Positions 34,755 to 40,951 of a stretch of 64,000 bases of DNA are shown in pieces. Each line of letters opens with the position of its first letter. Within the stretch, counting starts at the first letter, position 1. The translations under genes and the position numbers were made by a program. The notes beneath the pieces are model-generated. The model ran no database searches. It worked only from the letters and a program-made list of their open reading frames with translations, and was not told the DNA's origin. The DNA lies in contig JACFMS010000005.1 of NCBI GenBank assembly GCA_019455285.1, positions 62,001-126,000 on the forward strand, given 5' to 3'. This stretch comes from Sphingomonadales bacterium. GTDB taxonomy: Bacteria > Pseudomonadota > Alphaproteobacteria > Sphingomonadales > Govanellaceae.

Positions 34755-35354
34755 ATGCGCCGGATTATCATCATCGCCGCCGCCCTAAGCGTGGCGGCCG
34801 CCGCTATCTATCTGGCGCTGAAAGAAATCAGCGCCGACCGAGGGAATACGCCAAACACCGCCTGGCTGCAAGGGCATGCCGTGGGCGGCCTCGCCAACCT
34901 GGCGCCGGCGGCGGAGGCCAAACTCTTACCCGAGCGACCCTTTCTCGACCCGACGGGCAAGCCAGTATCCTTTGCCGAGTTTAAAGGCAAGGTGGTGGTG
35001 GTTAACTTTTGGGCCACTTGGTGCGCCCCCTGCCGGGAGGAAATGCCCGCTCTCGACCGCCTGGCGGCGGCGACCAAGGACAAGCCTATCACCGTCCTCG
35101 CCATCTCCATCGACCGCGGCGGGGTGGCCACCGCCCAGCCTTTCCTTGACGGCATCAAGGTCAAATCCTTGACCGCCTACACCGATCCCGGCGGGCCATT
35201 GAGCCGCGAGCTCGGCATCTTCGGGCTGCCGGTGACCTTGATCGTCGACCGGAACGGCTATGAGATCGCGCGCCACAGCGGCCCGGCGGCCTGGGATTCG
35301 CCCGCGGTACTCACCCTGCTGGACGCCGTGCTGAAGGCTTCACCCCCCATGTGA
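34755..35354 (+). CDS. tlpA: TlpA-like thiol:disulfide reductase
   Basis: 199-aa membrane-anchored periplasmic thioredoxin. An N-terminal TM helix (about 3-21) is followed by a thioredoxin fold with WATWCAPC (Cys90, Cys93) and cis-Pro in [10 protein letters not shown]. Likely reduces cytochrome apoproteins or copper chaperones, fitting the c-type haem protein encoded nearby. Its 3' end overlaps the convergent MFS gene by 44 bp. The RBS CAGGAG is clear. Confidence 0.93.
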
Positions 35355-36603
35355 CCAGGAGCGCCGCCGGCAGGCTCGCCGCGCCGGCAAGCGCCAGGAA
35401 GACGGGCACGCTCACCCCCGAGGCCAGCGCCGCCAGCCCCAGAATCGAGGACGCCACCATGAAAGCGGCGTCGGTGATGTTAAGGCCGGCGATGGCGCGG
35501 GCGCGGTGCGCCGGGTCGCTTCGGGTTTGCAGGATGGCGTAAAGCGGCACCACATAAAGACCCGCCGCCAGGGACAGCCCGAACAAGTCGGCCAATAGCC
35601 GCCAGCCCCCAAGGTTGCTTAAGAAAGCCGGGATATCGCGCAAGGCGGCGCTGCTGACCATCTCCACCTGCAGGAGGTCAAGGGAGAACAGCGCCATCGC
35701 CGCCCCCGCCCACGGCACGAAGCGGGCCGAGATCTGCCCGTGCAGCAGAATGCCGGCGAGAAGCGAACCCGCGCCGATGCCGGCGGCGAACACCATCAAA
35801 AACAGGATGACCACGCTTTCATCCGCCGCCAGCACGCCCTTCGCCAGATTGGGAAACTGCGCCATATAGGCCGAGCCCAAGAACCAGAACCAGGCGATGC
35901 CCAGGACGGCGGCGAGAACCGCCCGCGTGTGCGCCACATGAACCAGCACCCGCGCCGTGGCGGTAATCGGGTTCCAGTGAATCTTCAAACTTGGATCGCC
36001 GGCGCGGGTGGATGGAATGTTGCGGCTTGCCCCATAACCGATGACGGCAACCATGACCGTCATCGCCGAGACCATGACGATGCCGCCGTACTTCAAGACG
36101 AATAGCCCGCCGATGATGGTGCCGGCGAGAATGGCGAGAAACGTCGCCGCTTCAATCAGCGCATTGCCGCCAACCAGTTCATCCTCTGCCAGATGATCGG
36201 GCAGGATGCCGTATTTCAACGGTCCGAAAAACGCCGATTGCGTCCCCATCAACAACAAAACGCCCAACAGAAACCACACATCGCCGATGGCGAAACCGAT
36301 CACCCCCGCCGCCATGATCAACACTTCCGCGATCTTGGTCCAGCGGATGAGCAGGGCCTTGTCGTAGCGGTCGGCCAGCTCGCCGGCAACGCCGGAAAAA
36401 ACAAAGAATGGCAGGATGAAAATGCCCGCCGCCGCCGTCACCAAGAGTTCGGGCGAAACACCCGTGCTCGCGCCAAGGCGATAGGTGATGAGGATCACCA
36501 GCGCATTCTTATAAAGATTGTCATTGAACGCGCCCAGGAACTGGGTGGCGAACAGCGGCCCGAAACGCCGCGTTTGCAGAAGCTTGAATTGCCGATATGC
36601 CAC
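35311..36603 (-). CDS. LplT-like MFS transporter
   Basis: 430 aa with about 12 membrane helices. The N-terminus FGPLFATQFLGAFNDNLYKN and FFGPLKYGILPDHL match lysophospholipid transporters of the LplT/Aas-MFS group, which flip lysophospholipids inward for reacylation. GTG 36603 with AAGGAAAC upstream. It follows the amine dehydrogenase beta gene by 24 bp, but a functional link is not obvious. Confidence 0.88.
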   Translation of the reverse strand: MAYRQFKLLQTRRFGPLFATQFLGAFNDNLYKNALVILITYRLGASTGVSPELLVTAAAGIFILPFFVFSGVAGELADRYDKALLIRWTKIAEVLIMAAGVIGFAIGDVWFLLGVLLLMGTQSAFFGPLKYGILPDHLAEDELVGGNALIEAATFLAILAGTIIGGLFVLKYGGIVMVSAMTVMVAVIGYGASRNIPSTRAGDPSLKIHWNPITATARVLVHVAHTRAVLAAVLGIAWFWFLGSAYMAQFPNLAKGVLAADESVVILFLMVFAAGIGAGSLLAGILLHGQISARFVPWAGAAMALFSLDLLQVEMVSSAALRDIPAFLSNLGGWRLLADLFGLSLAAGLYVVPLYAILQTRSDPAHRARAIAGLNITDAAFMVASSILGLAALASGVSVPVFLALAGAASLPAALLVTWGVKPSARRPAG

Positions 36604-36627: not shown

Positions 36628-37737
36628 TCATTTCCCAAGATCAAGCCGCACGACGCGCACCGCCGCGCCCGCCATATCCGCACAATCAGGCAATAGAACG
36701 ACGGCCTTTTTTTCAAGGTTACCAGCGTCGTGGATCACGATATCGCACATGGCGCCGCTGATATAAACCTCGCGGCCGTCGCGCGAGACATTGAACTGGT
36801 AATAGCTGCGGTCAAGATCGACGCGCTTGACCAGCGCGCCTTTCTTCAGGTCGATCTTGCTCAGCGTGCGAAAGCCGCCAAAAGCGAATCTTTTATCCGG
36901 ACTGGCCGCCACGGCGAACAGCGTATCTTGCACGCCCTTGATGGGGGAGACAGTAAAGACGCCTTGCTTTAAATCCAGATGAAAAAGGGCGGTAACATCG
37001 GTGTTTTGATAACTGCGCGCAACCTCGGCGCGGCCATCAACCACCACCGCCGTGAACACATCGCTGCTTTCCGGCGTCGGCCAGAAATTGAGCGTATCAT
37101 AGGGCGAGGCATCGGGCTCCTGCCATTGCCGCAAGGGATAGGCGGCGATGATCCTGCCGGTCTCTGGGTCAAGGGTGTAGAAGTTCGAGCCCAGCGCGTA
37201 AAGATGCTGGCCGTCCTTGGAGAACAACAAGAGGCGGATGCGGCGCGGCATATTGATGAACACCGCTTCCGCTTTGGCGTCAAGGCCGCCGTTGGCGGCG
37301 TAGACGGCGATGCGATTGGGCTGCGCTTCATAGCGATCAAGCTTGGCCTGCACTGGAATTTCGTAGGAATAAATTTTTGCGCCATCAGGACTGACCGTAA
37401 GACCAAAATTGACCACACGTTCATTTTTCACCTGCGGCATGTGGGCGCGAAACACTTCCTTGCCGCTGGTCAACTCAATGCCGATGATATCCCTGGCCTG
37501 GTTGGCGACGACATAAGCGATCCTGCCGTCAGGCGAAGGTTCGATGAAGCTCGGTCCGACAGCGGGATCGGGAAGCTCGTAGGCGCGCGCCACGGCGCGC
37601 CGCTTGAGATCAATGAGGTAAAGCTTGTTGGGATTGGCGGCGGTGAGAATATAGTCCTTCTCCGCCGCGTGCGCCGACGCGGCAAGGGCAAACAACAGCG
37701 CGCCTAGAATTGTTGTTAGAGTTACTTGCCGCCTCAT
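36628..37737 (-). CDS. qhpB: Quinohemoprotein amine dehydrogenase beta subunit
   Basis: 369-aa periplasmic beta-propeller. A signal peptide ends near SAHA|AEKD (about residue 24). Repeated blades such as PSPDGRIAYVVANQARDIIG, LTVSPDGAKIYSYE and NVSRDGREVYISG follow, with the family end NLEKKAVVLLPDC. It starts inside the alpha-subunit stop (ATGA). In characterised enzymes the complex oxidises primary amines to aldehydes. The CTQ-bearing gamma subunit gene normally present between these genes is absent here. Confidence 0.9.
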   Translation of the reverse strand: MRRQVTLTTILGALLFALAASAHAAEKDYILTAANPNKLYLIDLKRRAVARAYELPDPAVGPSFIEPSPDGRIAYVVANQARDIIGIELTSGKEVFRAHMPQVKNERVVNFGLTVSPDGAKIYSYEIPVQAKLDRYEAQPNRIAVYAANGGLDAKAEAVFINMPRRIRLLLFSKDGQHLYALGSNFYTLDPETGRIIAAYPLRQWQEPDASPYDTLNFWPTPESSDVFTAVVVDGRAEVARSYQNTDVTALFHLDLKQGVFTVSPIKGVQDTLFAVAASPDKRFAFGGFRTLSKIDLKKGALVKRVDLDRSYYQFNVSRDGREVYISGAMCDIVIHDAGNLEKKAVVLLPDCADMAGAAVRVVRLDLGK

Positions 37738-39353
37738 GCGCCGCCTCTTTGCGTTGGCGGCAGCGGCTTGGTGACGATCAGGTGCGCTTCGCCGGTCAAG
37801 GTCACATCGCCATCGGCCACCGTGGCGATCACTTTCAGGTCGCCGGCATTGCTGGCGCCATAGAGACGTTCGGGATTGCCGCCCGCTTCCGACGGCAGAA
37901 AACGACCGTGCGGCGTGATCTTGCCGGCATAAAGATGGTCCTTCATGCGCGATGCTTCTTCGTCGTAGGGCGCCACATCCCAGGCGGCGGCAACCACGCC
38001 GATGCGAAAATCGTCATCCGTTCCCGCGATGCCGTCGCCGCCGCTGGCGTAGGCCACCGCCTCGAACTGCGCCGAAACCGGAGCGATTTTGTCGCTGCCA
38101 AGACGCGCCGTAGCTTGGCCGGGCGTTACTTCGATTCGGTCTATCTTATCGTAGACTGCCACCGCCTGAGCCATCACCGCGTCACCCACCCGGACATCCC
38201 GCCGGCCAAGGGGAGCATCGGCCGCAACCTCCGCCATGACGACGATCTTATCCTCGCTCCGGCTGGTCACACGGACGGCAATGCCGTCGCCCAGCGATAC
38301 TTCGCCTTTCATGCCGACGCCAAGAATAGTGATTTCAGTGCTCGCACCACGCTTCAACCCTTCCTTGGTCACTGCCAGGGGACGCTGAAGACCGCGATCG
38401 GCGCGCACCACCACGAAATTACTGCCCATCTCCGGCGCGTCGCGCCAATAGCTGCGGCCAGTCATGGTCACGCCATCGGCTTGAAGCGCCGCCGCTTCAT
38501 AAAAGTCGCGATTATCGCGCTTGCCGCTGCCGCGCCATTCATACTTTGAGTAGATGATCGCCGCATAATTGACATTGATGGCGGCGCCGTCGGCTGTTTG
38601 CTCCTCTGCGGCGACGAGATACTCATCAACAGCGTTGCGGGTGACGGTCATAACGCCCTCGGCAAAGCCCTCGCCGGGCATATAGCCGACAAATCGCCAG
38701 CGCCCCTGGAAATCGACCGCCGGCGCGGCGGACCACTCGCGCCAATCCGAGGTATCATAAGGAAAGTGGCTGCCGAGCGCGGTGGCGACCCAGCCTTGCG
38801 CCTCCTCCCACCAATCGCGGTCACGGGCCAGCACCTGATACTCCAGCGTCGGCCACAGGCCGAGGTGGGTATGAAACAGCCGCCGCCATTCCTCCGCGTC
38901 GCGGCGCTGCAAGGCAACCCGGGCGAAGGCATGGCAGCGCGCGCACATGCTCGTTAAATCGGCGTTCCGGCCGGATTCGACGACATTGGGCCGCCGCTCC
39001 AGCTCGTAGCGATAGGGCGCGGTTTCCGACGGCGCCAGCCCCTGGGTGTCAGCGAGAAACTTGACGGCGGCGCGATGGTCCTGCGGCGACAGCTTGACGC
39101 CGCGCGTGGATTCCATGCGCGCCAGCGTCATCTCCCAGCCTTCCGGCGTCTTGCGAATGCCCGAGAGGCGGCTGAGCGAGCCGTCGGCGGCGGCGCGGTG
39201 GCAGAGCGAGCATTCCCGGGCGACCACTTCCGCGCCTAGATCGCGCAAGGTGAGCGGCGGCGGCGCTGGCGTTTCCTTTTCTTCACCGCAGCTGGCCAGC
39301 GCCATCAGCGCCGCTGCGACTGCGACCGCCTTTAACCCTGCCGGCAACCTCAT
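37734..39353 (-). CDS. qhpA: Quinohemoprotein amine dehydrogenase alpha subunit
   Basis: 539-aa dihaem subunit with CSLCH (Cys48-His52) and CARCH (Cys137-His141) c-type haem sites, then three beta-rich domains. The N-terminus carries a lipobox, LASC with Cys22, so it is predicted to be a lipoprotein. It overlaps the beta gene directly. Upstream on the same strand is an aldehyde dehydrogenase. No qhpC (gamma) or radical-SAM qhpD gene lies in the 3 kb on either side, which is unusual for this family. Confidence 0.9.
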   Translation of the reverse strand: MRLPAGLKAVAVAAALMALASCGEEKETPAPPPLTLRDLGAEVVARECSLCHRAAADGSLSRLSGIRKTPEGWEMTLARMESTRGVKLSPQDHRAAVKFLADTQGLAPSETAPYRYELERRPNVVESGRNADLTSMCARCHAFARVALQRRDAEEWRRLFHTHLGLWPTLEYQVLARDRDWWEEAQGWVATALGSHFPYDTSDWREWSAAPAVDFQGRWRFVGYMPGEGFAEGVMTVTRNAVDEYLVAAEEQTADGAAINVNYAAIIYSKYEWRGSGKRDNRDFYEAAALQADGVTMTGRSYWRDAPEMGSNFVVVRADRGLQRPLAVTKEGLKRGASTEITILGVGMKGEVSLGDGIAVRVTSRSEDKIVVMAEVAADAPLGRRDVRVGDAVMAQAVAVYDKIDRIEVTPGQATARLGSDKIAPVSAQFEAVAYASGGDGIAGTDDDFRIGVVAAAWDVAPYDEEASRMKDHLYAGKITPHGRFLPSEAGGNPERLYGASNAGDLKVIATVADGDVTLTGEAHLIVTKPLPPTQRGGA

Positions 39354-39442: not shown

Positions 39443-40951
39443 TTAGACCGTCATGCACACCGACTTTGTTTCGGTATAAAGGTCAAACACCGCCCGTCCC
39501 ATTTCACGGCCAATGCCCGAGTTCTTGTAGCCGCCGAAGGGCAACGCCGGATCCAACAGATTATGGCCGTTGACCCACACCGTGCCGGCCTTGATTTTCG
39601 GGATCAGGCGATGGACGAAGTTCAAGTTGGTGCTCCACACGGAAGCGCCGAGGCCATAGATGGTGTCGTTGGCCATGGCCGGGATCTGCGACACATCGTC
39701 GATCGCTTGCGCGCACACCACGGGACCAAAGATTTCCTCGCGCACCATCTTCATGTCGGGCTTGACGTCGACGAAGATGGTCGGCTCGACAAAACAGCCG
39801 GTCGCGCCGACCTTTTTACCGCCGGCGAGCGCCTTGGCCCCTTCCGAGAAACCGGATTGGATGTAACGCAACACCCGCTCCTGCTGCTCCTGGGAAACCA
39901 GCGGCCCGACCTGGGTGGACGGATCAAGGCCGGGGCCTACCTTCATCTGTTTGGCGAAGGCGGCAATACCCTCGGTCACCTTGTCGAACACCTTGCGTTC
40001 CACAAAAAGCCGCGATCCCGCCGTGCACACCTGACCCTGGTTGAAGTAGATGGCCATGGCGGCGCCGGGGATGGCCTGCTCCAGGTCGGCGTCGGCCATG
40101 ACGACCACCGGCGACTTGCCGCCGAGTTCCAGCGATACCCGCTTCAGATTCTTCATGGCGTTGACGCCAATGAGCTTGCCGATCTCGGTGGAGCCGGTAA
40201 AGGCGATCTTGTCCACCTCGGGATGCTCCACCAGCGCGCCGCCGGCGGTGGGGCCAAAACCGGTGATGACGTTGACGACGCCTTTCGGGAAGCCCGCTTC
40301 CATCGCCAGCTCACCCAGCCGAAGTGCGGTCAAGGGCGTCTGTTCGGCGGGTTTTAGGACCACCGTGCAGCCGGCGGCCAGCGCCGGTCCGATCTTCCAC
40401 GCCGCCATCAGGAGCGGGAAGTTCCAGGGAATGATCTGGCCGCATACCCCCACCGGCTCCTTGCGGGTATAGGCGAAAAATTGGCCCTGAGGCACGTATG
40501 AGAGGGAGACGTCGATGGTGCTGCCCTCGATCTTGGTCGCCCACCCCGCCATGTAGCGTAAAAATTCCGCGGTCATGACCACATCGCCATGGCGCGCCAT
40601 CATCACCGGCTTGCCGTTGTCGAGGGATTCGAGCTGCGCCAGTTCGTCAGCGTTAGCCTCCACCAGATCAGCCAGCTTGTGGAGCAGACGCTCGCGCTGC
40701 ATCGGCCGCAGGCTGGGCCATTCGCCGCTTTCAAAGGCGCGGCGCGCCGCCTTTGCCGCCTTGTCCACGTCGGCCTTGTCACCCTCGGCGACGCGGCCCA
40801 CTTCCTTATTGGTCGCCGGATCGATGACGGCGAAGGTCTTGCCGCTGGCGGCTTCCACCCATAGGCCGTCGATCAACAGCTTTTTTGGCTGGGAGATGAA
40901 TTTCTTGGCAGCATCGCCTAAACGGGCGCGTTGGTCGCTGATGGCATCCAT
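39443..40951 (-). CDS. Aldehyde dehydrogenase (phenylacetaldehyde-type)
   Basis: NAD(P)-dependent oxidation of an aldehyde to a carboxylate. 502 aa with Asn177 in PWNFPL, Glu275 in LELGGKSP and nucleophile Cys309 in NQGQVCTAG. It resembles the aldehyde/phenylacetaldehyde dehydrogenase group. It lies 89 bp upstream of the amine dehydrogenase alpha gene on the same strand, so amine to aldehyde to acid is a plausible route. AAAGGAG precedes ATG 40951. Confidence 0.93.
   Translation of the reverse strand: MDAISDQRARLGDAAKKFISQPKKLLIDGLWVEAASGKTFAVIDPATNKEVGRVAEGDKADVDKAAKAARRAFESGEWPSLRPMQRERLLHKLADLVEANADELAQLESLDNGKPVMMARHGDVVMTAEFLRYMAGWATKIEGSTIDVSLSYVPQGQFFAYTRKEPVGVCGQIIPWNFPLLMAAWKIGPALAAGCTVVLKPAEQTPLTALRLGELAMEAGFPKGVVNVITGFGPTAGGALVEHPEVDKIAFTGSTEIGKLIGVNAMKNLKRVSLELGGKSPVVVMADADLEQAIPGAAMAIYFNQGQVCTAGSRLFVERKVFDKVTEGIAAFAKQMKVGPGLDPSTQVGPLVSQEQQERVLRYIQSGFSEGAKALAGGKKVGATGCFVEPTIFVDVKPDMKMVREEIFGPVVCAQAIDDVSQIPAMANDTIYGLGASVWSTNLNFVHRLIPKIKAGTVWVNGHNLLDPALPFGGYKNSGIGREMGRAVFDLYTETKSVCMTV

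Follow-up and report, generated by a model that had tools for sequence, protein, structure and literature searches.

Quinohemoprotein amine dehydrogenase (QHNDH; encoded by qhpABC, with the P. denitrificans enzyme solved as 1JJU and that of P. putida as 1JMX) is known as an obligate three-subunit enzyme, in which the gamma subunit does the chemistry. Methylamine dehydrogenase (MADH) with MauG is similar to QHNDH in combining a propeller subunit, protein-derived tryptophylquinone chemistry and c-haems nearby. MADH keeps its TTQ subunit, whereas the gene pair described here stands without a quinone subunit. In the characterised QHNDH the CTQ that reacts with the substrate is located in gamma, and in Paracoccus an active enzyme requires every qhp gene, a qhpG mutant being inactive (PMC7876137). 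The QHNDH reaction should therefore be impossible in a cell lacking gamma, QhpD and QhpG.

The window (the whole stretch of DNA that was analysed, 64,000 nucleotides) belongs to a genome of 3.3 Mb (G000) with a completeness rating of 100% and a contamination of 0.43%. The sequence-only reading had recognised in it the alpha and beta genes of a quinohemoprotein amine dehydrogenase, overlapping by ATGA, with gamma and qhpD nowhere near (Table 1). Profile searches bore out the assignment: alpha scored 572 bits against NCBIfam TIGR03908 (cut-off 274) and beta 304 bits against TIGR03907 (cut-off 223), and the overlap was found in G000 as well as in its congener G001. Alpha matched all four Pfam domains of the QH-AmDH alpha subunit (PF09098/14930/09099/09100) and has the dihaem c domain, with two CxxCH motifs (C48-H52 and C137-H141), followed by domains II-IV; beta has the propeller expected of the QHNDH beta subunit. 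The closest solved relatives were the alpha chains (37-40% identity) and the beta chains of 1JMX and 1JJU. The predicted models matched these folds with TM scores, normalised by target, of 0.89-0.90 for alpha (1jmx_A, 0.89) and 0.92-0.95 for beta (1jju_B, 0.95). The alpha protein ends in KPLPPTQRGGA where QRWNxPPI is usual. As a diagnostic mark the absent tail counts weakly, since three alphas of the gamma-bearing clade (L034, L036 and L038) have other tails too.

Table 1. Features of the alpha/beta locus (positions in the window)
Feature	Position	Strand	Description
MFS transporter	35311-36603	-	directly downstream of beta
QhpB-like beta	36628-37737	-	369 aa; Sec-type signal peptide; seven-bladed propeller; His310 to Arg
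ATGA overlap, alpha stop/beta start	37734-37737	-	qhpD and qhpC occupy the same place in relatives
QhpA-like alpha	37734-39353	-	539 aa; lipoprotein-type signal (LASC); domains I-IV
Aldehyde dehydrogenase (ALDH)	39443-40951	-	StyD phenylacetaldehyde dehydrogenase-like, below equivalog cut-off; directly upstream of alpha

The locus was compared with those of two members of the same family that carry complete qhp operons. In G002 the order is P450, ALDH, alpha, D, gamma, beta, F, MFS, TlpA, ArgH, LysA; in G003 it is ALDH, AraC regulator, TonB receptor, alpha, D, gamma, beta, F, E, G (on the opposite strand), MFS, TlpA. In the window and in G001 the order is reduced to ALDH, alpha, beta, MFS, TlpA, ArgH, LysA. 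ALDH lies upstream of the operon in all of them. In G002 and G003 the MFS gene is found beyond qhpF and the genes that come after it, and it therefore delimits the lost segment on the right. Between alpha and beta, D and gamma have disappeared; the interval from beta to MFS has lost F and also, if G003 is taken as the reference, E and G. This took at least two removals, or one event with rearrangement. The AraC-type regulator and TonB-dependent receptor that separate ALDH from alpha in G003 (L077:6380-9708) occur neither at the window locus nor at the matching place in G002.

In trees the gamma-less pair G000/G001 was nested inside the gamma-bearing sequences, as sister to G003, which indicated that the loss is derived. 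Since the same junction is present in both species, the loss must be older than the split between G000 and G001.

Gamma was searched for throughout the genome of the window. The Pfam model PF08992, which matched none of 14 control genomes and whose sensitivity was shown on 19 relatives and via a second profile on G003, had no match in G000. The second profile (A1), built from nine gammas of relatives, returned nothing at E<=10 from G000 or G001 and gave 2.4e-58 with the same-family control G003; run against the window with all filters off it produced chance-level scores only. The best QhpD match in G000 reached 27 bits, compared with a cut-off of 453 and with 666-772 bits in relatives, and was rejected on inspection as a generic radical-SAM protein. 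QhpG was present in G003, G016 and G026 and partial or fragmentary in G002; none was detected in G000 or G001. QhpE and QhpF, searched for at the window locus only, were absent from it; G003 has both at this place and G002 has F. Thus neither a gamma subunit with CTQ nor QhpD and QhpG were found in G000 or G001, the two members of the genus that the searches covered. The sequence-only reading had offered two explanations, and the first of these, that the missing parts lie elsewhere in the genome, was not supported; gamma, QhpD and QhpG went undetected in the whole genome and in the congener. It is very improbable that gamma and the maturases are present but were missed through assembly gaps or relocation. 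Both assemblies are indeed in many contigs, and maturase genes may become separated from the operon, as seen in G016 (L003, L066; G016:C1), where QhpD is situated about 136 kb from alpha and gamma. However, G000 is rated complete, in both species the usual location between alpha and beta lies on unbroken sequence and holds no gene, and three independent genes (C, D and G) are missing from both genomes. We conclude that the locus once held an alpha-D-gamma-beta-F operon from which qhpD, qhpC and qhpF were lost, and that gamma, D and G have disappeared from the genome as a whole.

Elsewhere alpha was regularly accompanied by gamma. Among 147 relatives alpha scored above the cut-off in 21, and gamma was found in 19 of these, the two without it being G000 and G001. 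All six other alpha-positive genomes of an even class sample had gamma, as did 6/6 in a phylum sample; outside the genus of the window this held for 31 of 31 alpha-positive genomes over all samples. D and gamma adjoined alpha in each of the 19 genome-contig loci with enough flanking sequence. On plasmids, 26 of the 27 alpha-bearing records carried gamma and the remaining one had an alpha fragment only (NZ_CP044080.1:119245-119877, a Paracoccus yeei plasmid; probably a remnant). No further intact alpha without gamma was encountered on plasmids or in the phylum sample. The gamma-less pair is known from two species only, and no description of a gamma-less qhpAB was found in the part of the open-access literature that was searched.

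Compared with QHNDH, the window has orthologues of QhpA and QhpB at the same locus, with ALDH beside them. It differs from QHNDH in lacking gamma (QhpC) and with it CTQ, in the absence of QhpD and QhpG from the genome and of QhpE and QhpF from the locus, in the direct overlap of alpha and beta, and in the altered alpha tail, P492, N501, Q166 and beta H310. Because a defining feature, gamma with CTQ, was looked for and not found, the pair would, on its gene content, be no working QHNDH, though its subunits are true orthologues of QhpA and QhpB.

Alpha and beta are full length in both species, at a dS of 0.25-0.33, and the export signals, both CxxCH motifs and the conserved haem-domain residues M80 and H163 have been kept. 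Between G000 and G001 dN/dS was 0.187 for alpha and 0.157 for beta, against 0.06-0.20 for the neighbours; gamma-bearing pairs gave similar values, 0.10-0.25 in alpha and, for the most part, 0.06-0.15 in beta. Neutrality was rejected by Fisher's test (p 7e-26 for alpha, 9e-17 for beta). By these measures alpha and beta have been retained as intact, predicted exported proteins under purifying selection, and the pair can be described, as far as substitution patterns tell, as a gamma-less QHNDH derivative maintained by selection.

The residues that had changed were compared with 55 positions of alpha invariant in 28 gamma-bearing alphas, the controls being counted by leave-one-out. Alpha keeps 52 of them; I63L, G270K and P492G/R differ in both species, and lowering the threshold to 95% adds Q166L and N501S. 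The count of 3/55 is within the control range (0-3), and the changes at invariant sites of alpha are for this reason suggestive only. Conserved hydrophobic residues of alpha were replaced by polar ones at seven positions, compared with at most five in controls. Several of the changes adjoin the conserved H163 of the haem domain or fall within domain IV, close to the C terminus, in a region that is also of lower model confidence. Beta keeps 15 of 16 invariant positions with H310R as its sole change, and one gamma-bearing sequence (L043) has Tyr at position 310. Substitutions such as P492G/R, G270K and H310R at otherwise invariant sites, the slight excess of hydrophobic-to-polar changes and a dN/dS of alpha in the upper part of the range are what one might see if the two genes were decaying leftovers of the operon loss, as yet undisrupted. 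This explanation is improbable: intact genes in two species together with low dN/dS reject decay since the species split, neutrality failed at p<1e-15 for both genes, and the nonsynonymous share of alpha was not significantly different from that of gamma-bearing pairs.

What the retained proteins do can be proposed with moderate confidence: alpha and beta would constitute a CTQ-free dihaem/propeller complex in a role other than amine dehydrogenation, parts of the qhp operon having been lost before the species split. This is the second of the explanations offered by the sequence-only reading, to which the derived loss at a syntenic locus and the purifying selection add weight; the other job itself is something we infer. 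Alpha and beta would still form a periplasmic, lipid-anchored dihaem/propeller complex, which without CTQ would be unable to oxidise amines by the QHNDH mechanism, and the former gamma pocket would be open, or filled by something else. Most likely the complex would now serve another periplasmic donor, either as a c-type dihaem electron relay or as a haem-based redox protein; passage of electrons from another donor, or action via the haems, seems the most economical reading, and the role of the retained complex is probably one in electron transfer. It is fairly probable that the alpha-beta pair either constitutes a novel CTQ-free periplasmic redox complex, exapted from an amine dehydrogenase that had lost its catalytic subunit, or recruits a new, non-homologous cofactor subunit.

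The main alternative to a new role is that a small subunit encoded elsewhere, either unrelated to gamma or extremely diverged from it, has taken the place of gamma, possibly with another quinone cofactor, the complex still being an amine (or other) dehydrogenase. The retained syntenic ALDH, which is strongly conserved between G000 and G001 (dN/dS 0.08) as expected if aldehyde is still made, would fit continued production of aldehyde from amines, for which some cofactor would be needed. With most invariant positions of alpha and beta preserved, the pocket may have kept its ability to bind a gamma-like subunit. Yet QhpC belongs to the best-conserved components of the qhp system and its profile found nothing even at the permissive threshold used; D and G, the enzymes known for crosslinking and hydroxylation, are absent too; and no small candidate gene adjoins alpha or beta, alpha being preceded by a gap of 89 bp and beta followed by one of 24 bp. 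We regard a replacement subunit as unlikely.

A lineage that discarded gamma and the maturation genes and kept alpha and beta under selection suggests that the dihaem/propeller scaffold by itself serves a function visible to selection, and represents a natural knock-out in which to ask what this function is. An annotation pipeline relying on the alpha and beta equivalog models would name the pair an amine dehydrogenase despite the missing catalytic subunit.

Some variation was seen among the gamma-bearing loci. The order in L049 is alpha-gamma-beta-D, as opposed to the usual alpha-D-gamma-beta. Two loci of Gemmatimonadota (L051 and L053) have alpha-D-gamma, and no beta was detected there with the window beta as query; their beta is perhaps very diverged or missing. 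The alpha open frame of L020 (G145) is about 100 residues longer than usual at the N terminus. Two alpha/gamma sets are carried by several genomes of one genus (G026, G040, G062, G068, G071, G080, G097 and G112), and G108 gave three gamma matches.
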